Shown here: positions 24,390 to 35,934 of the stretch, piece after piece
How the letters are laid out: every line of letters starts with the position of its first letter
Position numbering within the stretch: position 1 is the first letter of the stretch
Origin: Clostridium rhizosphaerae
GTDB lineage: Bacteria; Bacillota; Clostridia; Clostridiales; Clostridiaceae
Assembly: GCF_016765585.1 (NCBI RefSeq)
Contig: NZ_JAESWC010000018.1
Coordinates: 558,001 to 622,000, forward strand
Length of the DNA stretch: 64,000 bases
Direction: 5' to 3'
Made by a program: the position numbers and the translations under genes
The notes under the pieces: model-generated
Database searches by the model: none
Told to the model about the DNA's origin: nothing
The model's input: the letters and a program-made list of their open reading frames with translations, nothing else

Positions 24390-26447
24390 TTAAAATTTGT
24401 TCTTAAAGTCCAAAAGATTTTTGAATTCCTCCAAATCTGTAACAGGCTCACTGCAGGAATAGTTTTGACAAATATATGCGGCAGACTTAGCATCAACCAT
24501 TTTATATTGTGTATCATTTTCTTTTAATGCAAAGGTAGTAAATGGAAGATATCTATTGTCAATTTCATTTTTCATTGCTTTTATGCTCTCATCCTCTTTA
24601 CTGCCTGCTGCAGCTACAGACTTACCTCCTATGTCAGCATATAAAAATGCAGTCATAAATAAAGAATGAGCGCTTGGCATTCTTTGAACATCACGTCCAA
24701 ACACTTCAAACTGTTTTTCTGCCATTTCCTCAAGTTTTCTGCTTTCAGTAAGCCTTGAAAGCCGTATTAAATTAAGAACTGCTGCTGAATTTCCTGAAGG
24801 TATTGCTCCATCATATACTTCCTTAGGTCTTATAATAAGCTCTTCAGCATCTTTACTGTAAAGATAAAAGCCACCTTCTTTTTCATCCCAAAACTGCTTT
24901 ATCATTTCCTTATTAAAGCTTACTGCCTTATCTAAATAAGCTTTATCTAATGTATTCTCATACAGTTCAATAAGTCCCCAAATGAGAAAAGCATAATCCT
25001 CCAAGTAAGCTAAATGAGCACTTTCTTTATCCCTATATCTTGCAAGCAGTCTGCCCTCTGAATTAACAAGCTTTTCAAATATAAATCTAACAGCCCTCAT
25101 CGCAGCCTTAGTATATTCTTCTTTTGCAAATACTCTTCCAGCGTAAGCAAAAGCTGCAATCATAAGCCCATTCCATGAAGTAAGTATTTTGTCATCCTTA
25201 TGAGGATGAACCCTTTTCTCCCTATAGTTGAATAACTTTTCACTTGACTTATTCAATCTCTCTTTTAAGTCTTCATCCTTTTCCAATTCATAAATTTCTT
25301 GTGCAATTAGATTTGGAATACTCTTGCCCTCGAAGTTTCCTCTTTCGGTGATATTATAATAATCACAATAAATTTTGCCTTCTTCTTCTCCAAGCACGCT
25401 TAAAACTTCTTTTACATCCCATACATAGAATTTTCCTTCAACTCCTTCTGAATCCGCATCCTCTGCACAATAAAAGCCGCCTTCCTCGGAGGTCATAACT
25501 GTTAAAATATATTTAAATATCTTTTCTGCTGTTTCTTTATAAAGTTCTTTCTTGGTAATCTGATAAGCTTCTGTATATGCAAGAGCCAAAAGAGCATTAT
25601 CATATAACATTTTTTCAAAGTGAGGTACAAGCCATTTTCTATCTACAGAATACCTTGAAAAACCAAAGCCTACGTGATCAAATATGCCTCCCTTATACAT
25701 GTCCTCCAAGGTCCTTTCTACTATTTCCAAAGCTTTCTTATCCTCATAAAGATAATAATATCTCATCAAGAACAATAGGTTATGCGGTATAGGAAACTTT
25801 GGTGCTTCTCCAATTCCTCCATATACAGGATCAAAACTATCCTTAAGTTCCTTATAAGCTTCCTCTACAGAAGCCCTGCTTAACCTGTTTTTACTTTTTC
25901 CTTTATCTGATTTTCCTATAGCCTTAACTATCTCTTCACTTGAGCTGATAAGTTCACTTTTTTTAGTTCTCCAAGCCTCTTCTACTGAATATAAAATGTC
26001 CATTAAACCTGGCCTTCCATACTTGCTTTTCTTAGGAAAATATGTACCAGCATAAAAGGGTTTTTTATCAGGGGTCATAATTATGGTCATAGGCCATCCG
26101 CCACTGCCTGTCAAAGCTTGGCATATTGTCATATAAATGCTGTCTATATCAGGTCTTTCTTCTTTATCAACTTTTATTGCTATAAAATATTTATTTAGTG
26201 TTTCTGCTACTTCTTCATCCTCGAAGGATTCCCGTTCCATAACGTGGCACCAATGACAAGTCGTCTTGCTGCACAGTTACGAATACCCAATAGAAAGGAA
26301 TATTGGTTTGTCTTCTGATTTTGCTTTTGTAAAGGCTTCATCAGACCAAGGATACCAATCTACTGGGTTATATGCATGCTGTAATAGGTATGGTGACTTC
26401 TCATGAACCAATCTATTAGCCTTTTTATGCATATTTTCGTTCTGCAT
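24390..26447 (-). pseudogene. DUF255 / YyaL-type thioredoxin-fold protein interrupted by an 18-nt insertion with stop
   Basis: Reading from ATG 26447 ([28 protein letters not shown]) gives the normal N-terminus ending SIGYS, then an in-frame TAA at 26277-26279. After 18 extra bases (26262-26279, TAACTGTGCAGCAAGACG) the expected sequence resumes in the same frame: TCHWCHVMERES, the thioredoxin-like active site, then a complete six-hairpin-like domain to 24390. Everything else looks intact over about 680 codons. The downstream piece has an ATG in HVMERES that could only yield a protein lacking the CxxC. Family: YyaL/SSP411, function unclear. Either a recent lesion, a sequence error or an unusual bypass. 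Confidence 0.85.
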
Positions 26448-26652
26448 AATATCACTCTCCTCTCATATATTTTTCTTAGTATTCCCTTTATGTAAAAACA
26501 TATGATGTTAACCAACCTTATTGAACATATAAACATCCACAAGCTATAAAGCCAAACTAATTTAAAAGAAGGTCTATAAAAAATAAGGCATCCTTTAAGC
26601 TTTATAATAAATCTGGGGCTCCTCTTTTTTATATCTTACCTATCATTTCTCT

Positions 26653-30202: not shown

Positions 30203-31072
30203 TTATTTTTGTCGAGATAATCTATCTAAATACGAAACTGCATTTAAAGCTGCTACCTGCCCTTCACCCATGGACTTTAGATACTGATAAGGCTTTCCTA
30301 CAACATCACCTGCTGCATAGCATCCTGAAAGATTGGTTTCCATATCTCTATTTACCTTAATATGACCATCTTCAACTAAAAGTCCAGGTACAAGCTGATC
30401 TGGTGATATATTATCTCTTAAAATAAATACTCCATCTGTTTCTAGTTCAATATTTTTTAATATAACTTTATCGACATGATTATCGCCAATTATTTCTACA
30501 GGTCTATCATTTATAATCTCTATATTCTCATTTAAATCATATTCACCCTTAAACATGGGTATGAAATAAACCTTTGAAGCCAGTTCGCTAACATAGTTCG
30601 CTTCTTCCATTGATTCCTTATTGTAACCAATTATAGTAACTACTTTATTCTTATATAATGGAGCATCGCAGGTTGCACAATATCCAACCCCTCTTCCAAG
30701 AAACTCACTTTCGCCTTTAAATGGCTTTCCAAAGGAAACTCCTGTAGCTAAAATTAAAGATGAAGCCTCATAAATTTTATCGTTAACCATTAAAGCATAA
30801 TATTCTCCCATGGCATATATGCTGTCTACTCTTTCATATGCTATCTGAATATCCATTTCAGTTAAATGTTCCTTAAACTTTTCAGTTAGAACCTTGCCGC
30901 TGATTCCATAAAAACCAACATAATTATTTATCTTAGGTGCAAGGTATAACTTATTGCTTAAGTTTTCATAACCAAAAATTATTATGTTTTTATTTCGGAT
31001 TTTTGCATTGATTGCTGCTGTGATTCCTGCAGGTCCACTTCCTACAATAGCTATATCATATCTTTCGCCCAT
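30203..31072 (-). CDS. Thioredoxin reductase homologue lacking NADPH motifs (possible ferredoxin-dependent FFTR)
   Basis: 289 aa. N-terminal FAD site IVGSGPAGITAA, redox disulfide Cys132-Cys135 (CATC), C-terminal GCYAAGDVVG. The second nucleotide domain reads VVTIIGYNKESMEEANYV: the GxGxxA/S dinucleotide motif seen in the window's other reductase (GVVGGGNSALEE) is gone, and no HRRxxxR-like motif follows. This matches clostridial ferredoxin-linked flavin thioredoxin reductases, which are independent of pyridine nucleotides; assignment is inference. It follows trxA by 66 bp. Start ATG 31072 (MGERYD) with GAGGTGGA; a GTG 12 bp upstream overlaps that site. Confidence 0.82.
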   Translation of the reverse strand: MGERYDIAIVGSGPAGITAAINAKIRNKNIIIFGYENLSNKLYLAPKINNYVGFYGISGKVLTEKFKEHLTEMDIQIAYERVDSIYAMGEYYALMVNDKIYEASSLILATGVSFGKPFKGESEFLGRGVGYCATCDAPLYKNKVVTIIGYNKESMEEANYVSELASKVYFIPMFKGEYDLNENIEIINDRPVEIIGDNHVDKVILKNIELETDGVFILRDNISPDQLVPGLLVEDGHIKVNRDMETNLSGCYAAGDVVGKPYQYLKSMGEGQVAALNAVSYLDRLSRQK

Positions 31073-31138
31073 CTTATCATCCACCTCTTAAGAGTAATGC
31101 TATATTAAACTAAATATATTTGACTCTTTCAATTATAG

Positions 31139-31453
31139 TTATATGTGTTTTTCAAGTTTATCCATAATAGCAGCTTTTGGCATAAATCCAACAAATTGAT
31201 CAATAACCTGTCCGTTATTAAATACTAAAACTGTCGGAATGCTAAACACTTTATATTTCATTGCTATATCTTGATTTTCATCAACATTTACCTTCCCAAC
31301 CACAGCTTTGCCTTCTAATTCATCTGCTATCTCCTCTATAACTGGTCCTAGCATTTTACAAGGTCCGCACCATGCTGCCCAAAAATCTACCACTACAGGT
31401 ATGTCTCTGTTTATTACCTCGTTGAAATTTGATTGATTAATACTCATTGCCAT
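31139..31453 (-). CDS. trxA: Thioredoxin
   Basis: 104-residue canonical thioredoxin with WCGPC (Cys29, Cys32), cis-Pro in FSIPTVLVF and normal length. Cytosolic dithiol reductant, reduced presumably by the neighbouring flavoprotein. SD AAGGAGG before ATG 31453. Its promoter carries a CsoR/CstR-like inverted repeat. Confidence 0.96.
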   Translation of the reverse strand: MAMSINQSNFNEVINRDIPVVVDFWAAWCGPCKMLGPVIEEIADELEGKAVVGKVNVDENQDIAMKYKVFSIPTVLVFNNGQVIDQFVGFMPKAAIMDKLEKHI

Positions 31454-31517
31454 AATCTTTTCCTCCTTATATTTAGAAACATGAAGTTCACTTTAAATGT
31501 TTGTTTGCGCAAAACTC

Positions 31518-31571
31518 ATATACCCCTACCTGGTATATATGTATAATACTACTATATTCGAAATTCGTCAA
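31518..31571 (-). promoter_or_regulatory. trxA promoter with CsoR/CstR-like operator
   Basis: TTGACG (31566-31571), 17-bp spacer, TATTAT (31543-31548). Covering the start site is ATATACC-N7-GGTATAT (31518-31538) with a C-rich centre (CCCCTACC), the form bound by CsoR-family repressors, including persulfide-sensing CstR. Confidence 0.65.
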
Positions 31572-31730
31572 TGCCTTTACAAAGATGATCTGTTTTTAGG
31601 GTAATAGTACGTATGAGCATTTCTTCCATAGTTCAAATATTTTTTTCATGCCCACCCTTCCTCAAATTTCTTAAAAGCGCAAAAGATTATTAATCTTTTA
31701 CTTCAACCCATTTCATGATATCATATCCTC

Positions 31731-31775
31731 ATATCTAGATATCGCAATATAATAATATGAATATTGTGGTATAAT
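31731..31775 (+). promoter_or_regulatory. ccdA promoter region with shared AT-rich operator-like motif
   Basis: ATATCTAGATATCGCAATAT (31731-31750) matches a site at 36312-36331 in 18 of 20 positions. An extended -10 element TGGTATAAT ends at 31775. The motif would overlap the -35 region, which suits repressor binding. Confidence 0.5.
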
Positions 31776-31844
31776 GTGACTATAATACTTAATATCATTT
31801 AATATAAAGTATTATTAGATGCGGGTCAAAAGGATGGTGACATA

Positions 31845-32549
31845 ATGAACAGTGTATCTTTTATATTGGCGTTTTCCGCAGGGTTATTGTCTTTTCTTTC
31901 TCCATGTGTTTTGCCGCTTGTTCCTGCTTATGTAAGTTATATTACGGGCACAGCCATTGGGGAAACGAAAAACAAAAAATCTAATCTATATGTTCTTTAC
32001 AAATCATTTGGATTTGTTATTGGTTTCTCACTAATATTTATCATAATGGGAGCTTCAATTACCTCGCTTGGGAAAATTTTTATTAAGAATCAAGAAATAT
32101 TCAGAAAGGTTTCTGGAATTTTAATATTTATTTTCGGGTTACATACAACAGGAATATTTAAAATTTCATTGCTTTACCGTGAAAAAAGATTTCTTACGTT
32201 TAGAAGAACAAATGGTACTTTTGGTTCTTTCTTGATAGGCATGGCTTTTGCTGCCGGATGGACACCATGTGTTGGACCAATATTATCATCAATTCTTGTT
32301 TATGCAAGCAGTATGGAAACCATAAGTAGGGGAATTTTTCTTCTAGTATTCTATTCTTTAGGTCTTGCTGTGCCATTTATTCTAACAGCCTTAGCTATTG
32401 ACAGCTTATCAGTAAGGCTAAGAAATTTAGGAAAATACTTAAAGATAATTTCTGTGATAAGTGGAGTACTAATGATTGCAATGGGAGTTTTAATATTTAC
32501 GAATAAGATAGGTATTTTAAGCCAATACTTAAATTTTATCAACTTCTAG
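31845..32549 (+). CDS. ccdA: CcdA-type thiol:disulfide transmembrane electron carrier
   Basis: 234-residue, six-helix DsbD-beta/CcdA protein. The redox Cys pair is in SFLSPCVLPLVPAYVSY and GWTPCVGPIL, both classic. It passes electrons from cytoplasmic thioredoxin across the membrane, here evidently to the TlpA-like protein encoded 18 bp downstream. ATG 31845 follows AAAGGATGGTGA. Confidence 0.94.
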   Translation: MNSVSFILAFSAGLLSFLSPCVLPLVPAYVSYITGTAIGETKNKKSNLYVLYKSFGFVIGFSLIFIIMGASITSLGKIFIKNQEIFRKVSGILIFIFGLHTTGIFKISLLYREKRFLTFRRTNGTFGSFLIGMAFAAGWTPCVGPILSSILVYASSMETISRGIFLLVFYSLGLAVPFILTALAIDSLSVRLRNLGKYLKIISVISGVLMIAMGVLIFTNKIGILSQYLNFINF

Positions 32550-32567
32550 TAAAAAGGAGAGATTTAC

Positions 32568-33197
32568 ATGAAAAGGACATTAATAGTTTTAGGTATATTA
32601 TTTCTCATATGCGGTTCTACATATACAGTTTACAATTATAATAAATCACTCAGCAAGAGTCCTGCAGCTATAACTTCTAAGCAGAACTCTGACTCTACTC
32701 AAAATCAAATTTCAACTAATAACAGTCCTGTATCAGAACAGAATAATAGCAATACTGCTTCTAACAATAAAACTACCTTTAAGAATGCTAAGGTAAAAGC
32801 TGCTGATTTTAAACTCAAAGATTTAAATGGTAAAGAAGTTTCATTAAGTGACTTCAAAGGAAAAAAAGTATTCTTGAACTTCTGGGCAAGTTGGTGCCCT
32901 CCATGTAAAGCTGAGATGCCTGATATTCAAAAGCTTTATCAGGAAACCAAAGATTCTGATTTAGTCATATTAGCTGTTAACTTAGATACAGATAATACTA
33001 CTGCGCAAAACTTTGTAAAAAACAACAAATATACTTTCCCCGTATTATTAGATTCAGATAATGATGCTGCAATCAAATATCAAATTGTATCAATACCTAC
33101 TTCATATTTTATAGATAAAGAAGGAAATATTGTAGATAAACATATTGGTTCAATGACATTAGAAAACATGAAAAGTTATATAGACAATATAAAATAA
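32568..33197 (+). CDS. Membrane-anchored TlpA/ResA-like thiol-disulfide oxidoreductase
   Basis: 209 aa: one N-terminal signal anchor (TLIVLGILFLICGSTYTVY), a Ser/Asn/Gln-rich linker of about 45 residues, then a thioredoxin fold with WASWCPPC and cis-Pro SIPTSYF. Extracytoplasmic partner of CcdA. Since no c-type cytochrome maturation gene is adjacent, the target may be general thiol repair. SD AAAGGAG. Confidence 0.93.
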   Translation: MKRTLIVLGILFLICGSTYTVYNYNKSLSKSPAAITSKQNSDSTQNQISTNNSPVSEQNNSNTASNNKTTFKNAKVKAADFKLKDLNGKEVSLSDFKGKKVFLNFWASWCPPCKAEMPDIQKLYQETKDSDLVILAVNLDTDNTTAQNFVKNNKYTFPVLLDSDNDAAIKYQIVSIPTSYFIDKEGNIVDKHIGSMTLENMKSYIDNIK

Positions 33198-33459
33198 GAA
33201 TATCACATGCAATTTGCTTAAGATGAAGAAAGCCTTATAAAAATAACTTATAACCCTTTATGAGGCATTAACCTCACATTAAAATAACTTATTATCCTAA
33301 TAAGTTTCTACTATCAATAGTTATTTTAATTAGGGTATATAAGCTATTTTGTTTTTTTCTCAACCAATTTTCCCGAAGACATAATGCACAATCTATTACC
33401 TAATCTCGTAATATCTTACCGTAGTCATTCACTCTTTATATACCATTAGAGCTTTACTA
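33198..33459. other. Gene-free spacer with small hairpins
   Basis: No coding potential found. Two hairpins are visible: GCCTTATAAA / TTTATGAGGC (33232-33241, 33257-33266) and TGAGG-N6-CCTCA beside it, plus AAAATAACT...AGTTATTTT near 33281-33328. None has a strong T run, so the terminator of the ccdA-tlpA operon is not certain. Confidence 0.5.
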
Positions 33460-33511
33460 TAAAAAAAATTAGATAGAGGCGTCACTAGAAATTCTAATGA
33501 TACTCTATCTA
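33460..33511 (-). terminator. Terminator after rhodanese gene
   Basis: Arms TAGATAGAG (33470-33478) and CTCTATCTA (33503-33511) with further inner pairing, followed on the minus strand by eight T. Confidence 0.85.
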
Positions 33512-33517
33512 TATGGT

Positions 33518-33838
33518 TTATCTCTCAAGTTTTCCTCTATATCTTCCTGTACCGCCAGCTATGTTAACTATATTGAATCCGTGTTCCTTTAAAATTCCAC
33601 AGGTCATTGAGCTTCTTGAACCAGAATGACATATAACATGATATTCCTTTGACTTATCAAGATATCTTTCAGGTGCTTCTAATATTGTATCCATTGGAAT
33701 GTTCTTAGCTGTTGGTAAATGTCCACCTTTATATTCATAAGGTTCTCTTATATCTATTAGATCTATTTTACCTATTAAGCTATCTATTTCATTAACATCG
33801 ATTGATTTTACTATAGGCCTTTGCATAAATGGAAACAT
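33518..33838 (-). CDS. Single-domain rhodanese sulfurtransferase
   Basis: 106 aa. Rhodanese core LIDIREPYEYKGGHLPTAKNIP and the active-site loop CHSGSRS with Cys70 that would carry a persulfide. Cytosolic. Start ATG 33838 (MFPFMQRP) follows AAAGGAGG; that ribosome site is the 3' end of an 86-nt structured repeat also found before copA. An upstream GTG is therefore rejected. Its promoter resembles that of the thioredoxin-like gene at 34360. Confidence 0.92.
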   Translation of the reverse strand: MFPFMQRPIVKSIDVNEIDSLIGKIDLIDIREPYEYKGGHLPTAKNIPMDTILEAPERYLDKSKEYHVICHSGSRSSMTCGILKEHGFNIVNIAGGTGRYRGKLER

Positions 33839-33845
33839 AAAACTT

Positions 33846-33931
33846 CCTCCTTTTACTCGTAACACGTGGCAATCTATACTTGCCCGTTCCCACTCGCAGA
33901 TTGCCCGTAAAAGGTCATTTAGACCTTTTAC
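33846..33931 (-). repeat. Structured SD-bearing leader element (diverged copy)
   Basis: 86-nt element in the rhodanese 5' UTR. In the mRNA: hairpin A GTAAAAGGTC-TAAAT-GACCTTTTAC, hairpin B GGCAATCT...AGATTGCC, then ACGAGTAAAAGGAGG with the ribosome site at its end. Same architecture, same loop TAAAT, and near-equal length as the two tandem units before copA (49777-49946). Confidence 0.75.
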
Positions 33932-33973
33932 TTCCTTTAACTTACTATAATATTAGTATCTTCTTATATACTT

Positions 33974-34002
33974 ATATTATGCTTATAATTTTATTTTGTC
34001 AA
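33974..34002 (-). promoter_or_regulatory. Rhodanese promoter
   Basis: TTGACA (33997-34002), 17-bp spacer, TAATAT (33974-33979) on the minus strand. Three CTTATA half-sites flank the -10 (33963-33987), resembling the motif at the 34360 and arsR promoters. Confidence 0.8.
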
Positions 34003-34030
34003 TACTAAAAAATAAATATTATTATTTTAT

Positions 34031-34360
34031 CTATTCCTCAAATATCATGTTATAGAATCTATTTATCTTACTATCTATATCCTGCATGCTGATATGTCTT
34101 GCTTCTCTAATAATTTCCTTACCCTCAATAAAAACAAGAACAGCCGGAATAGTAAATATATTGTATGCTGCTGAAATTTCCAATGATTTCTCTACATCTA
34201 CTTGATAACTTTTAATTTTAGGATAATCCTTTAATAATTCTTCAACCTTCGGTTTCATAACATTACATACATTGCAGCTGTTACTTCCAAAATATAAAAG
34301 TACCATTTTATTATTATTTATTAATTCTTCAATAGTTTCCTTTGAATCTATGAAATCCAT
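34031..34360 (-). CDS. Thioredoxin-like protein with CNVC active site
   Basis: 109 aa thioredoxin fold. The active site is FGSNSCNVCNVM (Cys29, Cys32), lacking the usual Trp and Gly-Pro; cis-Pro is in FTIPAVLVF. The CxVC motif recurs in thioredoxin-like proteins from anaerobes that are thought to serve sulfur or metal-thiol chemistry. Monocistronic; promoter carries the ATATAAG-N14-CTTATAT motif shared with arsR. Confidence 0.88.
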   Translation of the reverse strand: MDFIDSKETIEELINNNKMVLLYFGSNSCNVCNVMKPKVEELLKDYPKIKSYQVDVEKSLEISAAYNIFTIPAVLVFIEGKEIIREARHISMQDIDSKINRFYNMIFEE

Positions 34361-34380
34361 AATATATCAACTCCAATTTA

Positions 34381-34433
34381 ATATAAGAATTTAATTATAT
34401 GCTTATATTAATTCTAGATTTAACTTTTGTCAA
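34381..34433 (-). promoter_or_regulatory. Promoter and shared ATATAAG/CTTATAT operator
   Basis: TTGACA (34428-34433), 17 bp, TAATAT (34405-34410). The interrupted palindrome ATATAAG-N14-CTTATAT (34381-34408) begins in the -10 and covers the start site. Nearly the same sequence with the same promoter geometry is at 56649-56676. Confidence 0.72.
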
Positions 34434-34557
34434 CATCATGTCTTTGAAAGAAGTAAAAGCTGTTTAATAAAGGTATAGCAAAAACTTAAGTGAACATAAA
34501 TAGTAACCTAAAATTAAAAGGAAAGCTAAAAAAATCAACCTTCCTTTATGGACCATT

Positions 34558-34788
34558 CTATAATCCTAATATTTTATCAATGCCCTCTTGATCAAATCCA
34601 ACAACAATATTCCCATTAATATCTATTACGGGTACTCCTCTTTGGCCTGACTTATTAATCATTTCCTTAGCTGCTGTTTCATCTCTAGAAACATCTTTTT
34701 CAGTAAATGATACATTATTTGACTTTAGGTAATCCTTTACCACTCTGCACCATGGTCAGGTTGGTGTTGTATAAACTATAGCATTCAT
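34558..34788 (-). CDS. Selenocysteine-containing glutaredoxin-like protein
   Basis: Reading from ATG 34788 (SD AGGAGG) gives MNAIVYTTPT, then TGA (34756-34758), then PWCRVVKDYLKSNNV and a normal glutaredoxin/NrdH tail with the cis-Pro GVPVIDINGNIVVGF. TGA falls exactly at the first Cys of the family's TPTCPWC site, giving U11-P-W-C14. A hairpin GGTAA-AGGA-TTACC starts 14 nt after TGA with G in the loop, as bacterial SECIS elements require. Full length is 76 aa, typical for the family. A start at the first Met-like codon after TGA would delete the active site. Selenoprotein glutaredoxins are known from related clostridia; use of TGA here is a strong inference. Confidence 0.9.
34728..34741 (-). 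promoter_or_regulatory. Candidate bacterial SECIS hairpin
   Basis: Perfect 5-bp stem GGTAA/TTACC with tetraloop AGGA. The loop begins 20 nt after the TGA, inside the 16-37 nt window typical of bacterial SECIS elements, and holds G at loop position 2. Confidence 0.75.
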
Positions 34789-34907
34789 TGTTTTTCCTCC
34801 TAGATTATATAATTCTCACTAATTATATTGTACTAACCACTTTAATTTATACTTATATTGCTAATAATCTCATTACTTTTTATAGTGTTTTCTTTAAATA
34901 ATTATAT

Positions 34908-35261
34908 TTATGGCTTAATGTAGGCATATCCTTCAGACTGCTTTTTAATAAGTTCACTAACACCTGATGGAACTACTGTAACAAAACTCAGAAGCGACTC
35001 TTCATCAACTTTATTTCCAACTAATGAATTTCTGCAAGCTATAAAGCGCACTCCTAACTTGTAAGTTGATGTCATTTTATTTATAGTTTCATTGTATTCA
35101 TTATCCTCCAACACATAATCAATAACTGCATAGCCATTAGCAACTATCTCAACAATTACATTATCTCTTCCCAAATCTTTAATTAAATTATTTACATTGG
35201 CCAATACTGTACTCCGTTTTTCAGATTCATTTATATGAAATATAACCTTATATCCTTCCAT
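34908..35261 (-). CDS. DsrE-family small protein
   Basis: 117 aa with the DsrE/YchN fold pattern: KVIFHINESEKRSTVLANVNNLI, a central VIVEIVANGYAVIDYV, and a single cysteine in GVRFIACRNSL at the family's sulfur-carrying position. Probably binds or transfers sulfane sulfur; exact partner unknown. SD AAAGGAG before ATG 35261. Sits among rhodanese, thioredoxin and glutaredoxin genes. Confidence 0.85.
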   Translation of the reverse strand: MEGYKVIFHINESEKRSTVLANVNNLIKDLGRDNVIVEIVANGYAVIDYVLEDNEYNETINKMTSTYKLGVRFIACRNSLVGNKVDEESLLSFVTVVPSGVSELIKKQSEGYAYIKP

Positions 35262-35449
35262 AATAACTTCTCCTTTTTTTAATATACTTTTCTTTATTAT
35301 GATTAAAATATATCTTTATATAATTTTCAAATCAAGACTAATATTCACCCTACTGCATTTTCCTAATTATATTTGAAGAATACAAATAATACACTAAGGA
35401 AACTACTAATAATCAATCACTATACTATACCAAATTTTCAATTAACATT

Positions 35450-35511
35450 ATACCCTCCAGGGGTTTACTCTTGCTTTATTATATGTTACTATTATATCGT
35501 AATATATAAAT
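35450..35511 (+). promoter_or_regulatory. Rhodanese (35539) upstream sites
   Basis: ATACCC-TCCA-GGGGTTT (35450-35465) is CsoR/CstR-like. Further on, ATATCGTAATATATAAAT (35494-35511) resembles sites at 31739 and 36320. The promoter itself is not clear. Confidence 0.45.
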
Positions 35512-35538
35512 ATATAAATTAGGCGTAGAGGTGATATT

Positions 35539-35934
35539 TTGCAAAACGTAATATGGTGGTTATTAGCCGCTTTCATTATTTTCACATTGCTTAGAAAAAG
35601 ATTTTTTATGTTTAATAATAAAAATGTAAAGAATATTAATGCTGATGAAGGTTATAAATTAATAAATGAAAATAAAAATATGATTATTCTTGATGTAAGA
35701 ACCAAGGGTGAATTTGAGTCAGGTCATATACCTAAAGCTAAGAACATACCCGTTCAACAGTTATCTACAAGGATTAAAGAATTAGAAAAATATAAAGATG
35801 TACCTATTCTTGTACACTGTGCATCAGGTGGAAGAAGTCCATCTGCTGTAAGAGCACTTGCAAAAAATAATTTTACACAAGTTTATCATCTTAACAAAGG
35901 TCTTATGTCCTGGAAACATCAGTTAAAAAAATAG
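35539..35934 (+). CDS. Membrane-anchored rhodanese
   Basis: 131 aa. One N-terminal helix (VIWWLLAAFIIFTLL) followed by a cytoplasm-facing basic stretch and a rhodanese domain: MIILDVRTKGEFESGHIP and active-site HCASGGRS with Cys94. TTG 35539 is the start, preceded by GAGGTGAT. Likely a sulfurtransferase at the membrane. Confidence 0.9.
   Translation: MQNVIWWLLAAFIIFTLLRKRFFMFNNKNVKNINADEGYKLINENKNMIILDVRTKGEFESGHIPKAKNIPVQQLSTRIKELEKYKDVPILVHCASGGRSPSAVRALAKNNFTQVYHLNKGLMSWKHQLKK

Follow-up and report, generated by a model that had tools for sequence, protein, structure and literature searches.

The window analysed here, a 64 kb stretch of DNA, carries on its minus strand a short gene of the YruB glutaredoxin family (34558–34788) that runs from an ATG at 34788–34786 through 76 codons to a TAG at 34560–34558. 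The frame contains a single TGA (34756–34758, minus strand) at codon 11, which would be read as selenocysteine (Sec) at the first position of a U-P-W-C active site; translation with TGA as U gives a product of 76 residues beginning MNAIVYTTPT-U-PWC, and the same codon is TGA in 11 other close copies of the gene. A ribosome-binding site, AGGAGG, recognised by eye at 34796–34801 (minus strand), lies 7 nt before the ATG, and a bacterial SECIS-type hairpin, GGTAA-AGGA-TTACC (34728–34741, minus strand), occupies positions +15 to +28 after the TGA. Re-reading of the sequence bore out what an earlier, sequence-only reading of this DNA had described with these coordinates, namely a TGA inside the UPWC motif of a minus-strand glutaredoxin frame introduced by AGGAGG and ATG, and a hairpin beginning 14 nt after the TGA with a G in its loop. 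Standard-code ORF finding lists only a 61-aa remnant of the gene (34558–34743) that starts from a GTG at 34743.

Just 3′ of the glutaredoxin stop codon lies a terminator-like stem-loop with a T-rich tail (34517–34547, minus strand), and five terminator-like sites were found between 33400 and 35600 against 0.3 expected from shuffles. A promoter scan around the gene gave 18 hits, no improvement on the 15.8 expected from shuffles. Upstream, a gap of 119 nt separates the gene from a DsrE-like gene. The sequence GGTAAAGGATTACCT has one exact occurrence in the 64 kb, and two matches against 0.21 expected when up to two mismatches are allowed. The whole window was also scanned for TGA-interrupted frames that continue for 45 codons or more beyond the TGA and are mostly free of other long ORFs. 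The glutaredoxin frame is one of the eight candidates obtained and, by our reading, the sole one in which the TGA falls on a catalytic residue; of the remaining seven, one is antisense to it.

Family assignment of the readthrough product

With C in place of U, the readthrough protein scored 99.5 bits against the YruB-family glutaredoxin model TIGR02196, over the NCBIfam cut-off of 88.55, and a six-frame search of the genome with this model gave the window gene 90.6 bits, again over the cut-off. Pfam reports a Glutaredoxin match (PF00462) for the same protein. The name “glutaredoxin/NrdH” proposed by the sequence-only reading can accordingly be kept in its first half and dropped in its second, as the score against the NrdH redoxin model TIGR02194 was 45.2 bits with a curated cut-off of 85.75. 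The Uxx-star glutaredoxin-like (seleno)protein model NF041212 was ruled out as well, in this case by a narrow miss (62.1 bits, cut-off 66). Among solved structures, the protein is closest in sequence to 7C10 (E 1e-19) and 7C12/7C13 (E 3e-18), 7C10 and 7C12 being entitled “Glutaredoxin”. The “Glutaredoxin 3” structures 4TR0 and 4TR1, which we take to come from Clostridium (Alkaliphilus) oremlandii, are distant matches (E 3e-7 and 9e-6).

Selenocysteine machinery of the host genome

The genome from which the window derives (G000; 4.85 Mb in 27 contigs) encodes a full Sec system in a single cluster on contig C12, ordered selD-selA-selB-selC and lying entirely on the minus strand. The tRNA-Sec gene selC (C12:444602-444694, 65.5 bits) stood alone above the cut-off among 20 matches, and selB (C12:444891-446765, 387.6 bits), selA (C12:446802-448157, 642.6 bits) and selD (C12:448350-449267, 401.6 bits) all scored over their family cut-offs. 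The selD gene itself has one in-frame TGA, at codon 14. The glutaredoxin gene had been taken to imply selA to selD elsewhere in the genome, with a lack of Sec machinery named as the finding that would overturn the Sec interpretation; the search turned up all four genes, and the interpretation stood.

Comparison of Sec and Cys copies

The window protein was searched against 98 genomes, its own included, of which 57 gave a match, against the 206 family genomes, where 109 had one at E 1e-18, and against further genome contigs (14 loci). From the fetched loci we assembled 70 distinct copies, among them every TGA-containing match of the 98- and 206-genome searches; the Cys copies are a part of the Cys-type matches of both searches and are biased to the closest ones. 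An alignment with U- and Cys-containing glutaredoxins had been suggested as a check, and it gave an active-site codon of TGA in 18 copies and of TGC or TGT in 52. The window gene thus shows a hallmark of bacterial selenoproteins, a UGA within the frame where a redox-active residue is expected and where homologues have Cys.

In the 12 close Sec copies (at least 54.8% identity, window included), all five pairs of the hairpin are found at +15 to +28, with the loop AGGA in 11 and AGGC in one. The hairpin at this fixed place with its loop G is present in 12 of 18 Sec copies versus none of 52 Cys copies. The six distant Sec copies are without this hairpin at +15 to +28; other stems of five to six pairs occur in the scan range defined below in these six, and also in 3 of the 52 Cys copies.

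Codon usage under the hairpin points the same way. Among 11 gap-free close Sec copies (L096 was omitted for an indel), a single codon is used for invariant residues in 3 of 3 columns under the hairpin (Val GTA, Lys AAG, Tyr TAC) versus 0 of 23 columns elsewhere in the gene. One of the 23 is a Leu column; the first base of its codon closes the stem, and its three codons all start with C. The matching codons are mixed in Cys copies (Lys AAG 26, AAA 26; Tyr TAT 37, TAC 12). Hairpin conservation is tied to the TGA state among close copies, and we speak of conservation rather than covariation because the stem does not vary among the close Sec copies.

Taken alone, the hairpin at 34728–34741 is weak evidence and does not go beyond chance. 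A bacterial SECIS has a stem of at least four pairs and a loop of 3–14 nt that has a G in its first two bases and lies 16–37 nt after the UGA; the window hairpin, with five pairs and a loop AGGA (G second) starting at +20, falls within this rule. We scanned for a Watson-Crick stem of at least five pairs with a loop G, the loop being of 3–8 nt and starting 17–31 nt after the TGA. Of 20,000 synonymous recodings of the window peptide, 23% gave a stem of at least five pairs and a loop G in this range, so that an equally long stem by itself says little, and 1.4% gave five pairs at the exact place of the hairpin. When the 42 nt that follow the window TGA are folded, the structure of lowest energy (−4.2 kcal/mol) lacks the hairpin, which folds in an 18-nt piece at −3.6 kcal/mol. 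It is the comparison between Sec and Cys copies that gives the hairpin its weight.

Sec copies and tRNA-Sec across genomes

A tRNA-Sec over the cut-off was found in 87 of the 206 family genomes. With matches taken at E 1e-18, it is present in 8/8 genomes with a Sec-form match versus 21/101 with only Cys-form matches, an association with a Fisher p of 1e-5, a statistic that ignores relatedness. When weaker and same-order hits are included, all 15 TGA-copy genomes of both searches have a tRNA-Sec over the cut-off; the 18th TGA copy, on a Nitrospirae contig (L022), falls outside this count. On the tree the Sec label requires 10 changes, four of them being forced by well-supported branches, and a tree-based sign test with only four independent pairs averages 2.3 in agreement, 0 opposed and 1.7 without difference, significance being out of reach with so few pairs.

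The closest Cys orthologue (L089/L024), 76% identical, comes from genome G038 and is sister to the window copy on the tree (96/65). A tRNA-Sec search of G038, listed as 100% complete, gave no match. Its hairpin region reads GTGGTAAAGGATTATTTAAAATC, compared with GTGGTAAAGGATTACCTAAAGTC in the window, the difference lying in the 3′ arm. We read this region as a likely fossil SECIS that seems to be decaying. In the genus g25, G173 has TGA together with tRNA-Sec, and in G171 and G172 the copies are of the Cys type and the tRNA-Sec search gave no match; these Cys copies are not sisters of the G173 copy on the tree. Genome G061 combines a Cys copy with a tRNA-Sec, and 21 of the Cys-only family genomes keep tRNA-Sec, so that Sec is not obligatory at this position.

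Alternative explanations for the in-frame TGA

The TGA of the glutaredoxin gene is very probably read as Sec, judging from these comparisons. A pseudogene, in which a point mutation has produced a real stop, or a sequencing error in a Cys codon would also place a TGA here, which is one base from TGC or TGT at a position that is Cys in 52 of the 70 copies. Such an event is difficult to reconcile with the recurrence of TGA at this codon across other genera in two families (f1 and f2), with tRNA-Sec in 15 of 15 genomes, and with a frame that is otherwise intact and shows similarity on both sides of the TGA. The frozen hairpin codons of the close TGA copies and the absence of the hairpin from every one of the 52 Cys copies also speak against it, and we give mutation or error very little credence. 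A misread TGC or TGT, in particular, is very unlikely because other genomes share both this TGA and the hairpin.

It is still less probable, to the point of being scarcely credible, that the functional product is the 61-aa protein from GTG 34743 and the TGA merely an upstream stop with no Sec involved. An ORF finder does list this frame, but its product would be without the active site, the match to close homologues begins at query residues 1–5, before the TGA, and AGGAGG precedes the upstream ATG. Decoding of the TGA by near-cognate readthrough or by reassignment to an amino acid other than Sec appears just as implausible, given that the position is Cys in Cys-type relatives and that the genome has the full Sec system; nothing emerged in favour of such decoding.

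Proposed function and possible reductant

In bacteria, Sec is inserted with the help of SelB and Sec-tRNA where a UGA is followed closely by a hairpin, and in glutaredoxin chemistry attack by the selenolate is followed by resolution by Cys. Starting from the gene, its family, the Sec machinery and the TGA-linked conservation of the hairpin in close copies, all directly observed, we infer with high confidence a 76-residue YruB glutaredoxin that has Sec as the N-terminal residue of its U-P-W-C active site, inserted through SelB and the hairpin, and that would act as a thiol/selenol-disulfide oxidoreductase. SelB with Sec-tRNA(Sec) would bind the hairpin starting 14 nt after the UGA, and Sec would be inserted at codon 11 during translation. 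In the predicted product, the selenolate would attack a target disulfide or an oxidised residue and Cys14 would resolve the resulting adduct. The reductant would most likely be a thioredoxin-reductase-type flavoprotein and not glutathione.

In G050 and G038, the glutaredoxin gene is followed, as the next ORF of 70 aa or longer, by a thioredoxin-disulfide reductase gene (TIGR01292, over the cut-off), and in G001 such a gene lies 2.2 kb from the glutaredoxin gene. No thioredoxin reductase gene adjoins the glutaredoxin gene in the window. A thioredoxin (31139–31453) and a TrxR-like flavoprotein (30203–31084, minus strand) are encoded 3 kb from it, the latter scoring 207 bits, below the TIGR01292 cut-off of 343, and this reductase-like protein has no relative in 11 of 14 orthologue contexts. 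A possible extension of the proposal is that the UPWC protein carries a glutathione-free electron chain in which a TrxR-type flavoprotein reduces the selenenyl-sulfide, and that Sec gives way to Cys upon loss of Sec synthesis, as in G038. We put this forward tentatively and consider it rather doubtful; if true, it would provide natural pairs of Sec and Cys forms in which the benefit of selenium could be tested.

Other features of the neighbourhood were noted. The second nucleotide-binding motif of the flavoprotein encoded at 30203–31084 appears degenerate by eye, a feature reminiscent of the ferredoxin-linked, pyridine-nucleotide-independent type. The region 30203–35934 is a thiol/sulfur cluster that encodes TrxR-like, Trx, CcdA-like, ResA-like and DsrE-like proteins, two rhodanese-domain proteins and a thioredoxin-like protein with CNVC. 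Synteny is weak: the thioredoxin-like gene and one rhodanese gene have counterparts near the G001 orthologue (72–75% identity), the CcdA-like and ResA-like pair has counterparts near the G043 orthologue (56–67% identity), and the two-component neighbour genes have matches of only 27–42% identity.

Two further ideas were set aside. For a phage origin, matches were found in 48 phage records, all below 60% identity, and a search of viral contigs for the exact TGA-plus-hairpin pattern came back empty. Work on C. oremlandii had pointed to a possible selenoprotein MsrA partner, but a tandem Sec-MsrA/Sec-Grx scheme is unsupported here because neither of the two MsrA matches of the genome has an internal stop.

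A split yyaL gene and arrays of truncated yyaL copies

Elsewhere in the window, a yyaL/DUF255 thioredoxin-domain gene (24390–26501, minus strand) is split, with the junction near 26240–26283. Its 5′ frame ends in FLSIGYS at a TAA, followed by a short extra stretch and then by the codons for the active site, TCHWCH, and the frame of a 616-aa ORF. An insert of about 20 nt that also opens with a stop codon occupies the same place in two other genomes (G019 and G004), so that 3 of 11 readable loci have it (12 loci compared, window included), and splits of like kind occur in G194, G175, G173 and G161. Runs of truncated yyaL 5′ ends at the same site are found in six stretches from other Clostridiaceae, L150 to L155 (from G013, G212, G209, G173, G167 and G175, respectively). 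Most of these ends stop around TGTCATTGGTG, point in one direction and are usually 1–4 kb apart, with unrelated ordinary genes between them; the 3′ part of yyaL follows in five of the six stretches and is not within the L154 stretch.

A yyaL search of 225 genomes of the order gave a match in 118, and among the matches listed roughly 60, counted by eye, have open frames of less than 150 aa, some of which contig ends may explain. A Pfam scan of 20 proteins (one of them yyaL, two beyond yyaL, three with no match) found no recombinase. The core common to truncated yyaL copies, ACTTGTCATTGGTG, occurs once in the window with up to two mismatches allowed (26248–26261, minus strand), and no second insertion end is therefore visible there. 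The arrays resemble a cassette system of the integron or SCC kind in which yyaL would serve as attachment site, and a literature search found no paper on them by title. Together, the split gene and the arrays look more unusual than the selenoprotein glutaredoxin itself.

Relation to known selenoprotein glutaredoxins

The present analysis supports, from raw sequence, a selenoprotein at a locus where standard-code ORF finding leaves 61 residues without the active site. It also yields two close orthologues, the Sec copy of the window, whose genome has tRNA-Sec, and the Cys copy of G038, whose genome gave no match, a pair that should serve enzymology as well as the calibration of selenoprotein annotation. 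A selenoprotein glutaredoxin of Clostridium (Alkaliphilus) oremlandii was reportedly described by Kim in 2011 (cited in PMC4333827 and PMC9312934); judged by that title, it resembles the window protein in being a Sec-containing glutaredoxin from a member of the Clostridia.

A second glutaredoxin-like gene with an in-frame TGA is present in the same genome (G000:C12:757931-758149; L067, L104) and has relatives in G001 and G041. Its glutaredoxin domain is related to that of the window gene and its TGA lies at the same position, but it encodes U-P-H-C, has a C-terminal extension with two CxxC pairs and a different hairpin and, at 64.1 bits, stays under the TIGR02196 cut-off. The window protein exceeds that curated cut-off, although within the comparison set, of which not every copy was scored against TIGR02196, most copies have Cys where it has Sec.

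Glutaredoxin (Grx, UxxC, PF00462) appears in selenoproteome tables (PMC13188914, PMC9312934, PMC1794560) and, in reviews, among experimentally verified selenoproteins (PMC13188914, PMC9312934). The window protein shares the PF00462 match and the UxxC motif with these entries, which do not name the YruB subfamily in the available passages of the three papers. Literature searches for YruB as a selenoprotein and for “selenocysteine-containing glutaredoxin” gave no paper in the collection covered, where naming of the subfamily may therefore be unprinted. A 2006 survey lists selenoprotein glutaredoxins in Alkaliphilus metalliredigenes (two), Moorella thermoacetica and Geobacter sulfurreducens (PMC1794560), and in C. 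oremlandii glutaredoxin acts as the reductant of the Sec-containing MsrA (PMC4333827, citing Kim 2011). The sequence-only reading was thus right to recall a selenoprotein glutaredoxin in related clostridia, such proteins being tabulated in the 2006 survey and a paper on one of them being cited by title in PMC4333827. Because clostridial Sec glutaredoxins are in print, the window gene belongs to a known kind, and it is a well-supported further example rather than a new category.
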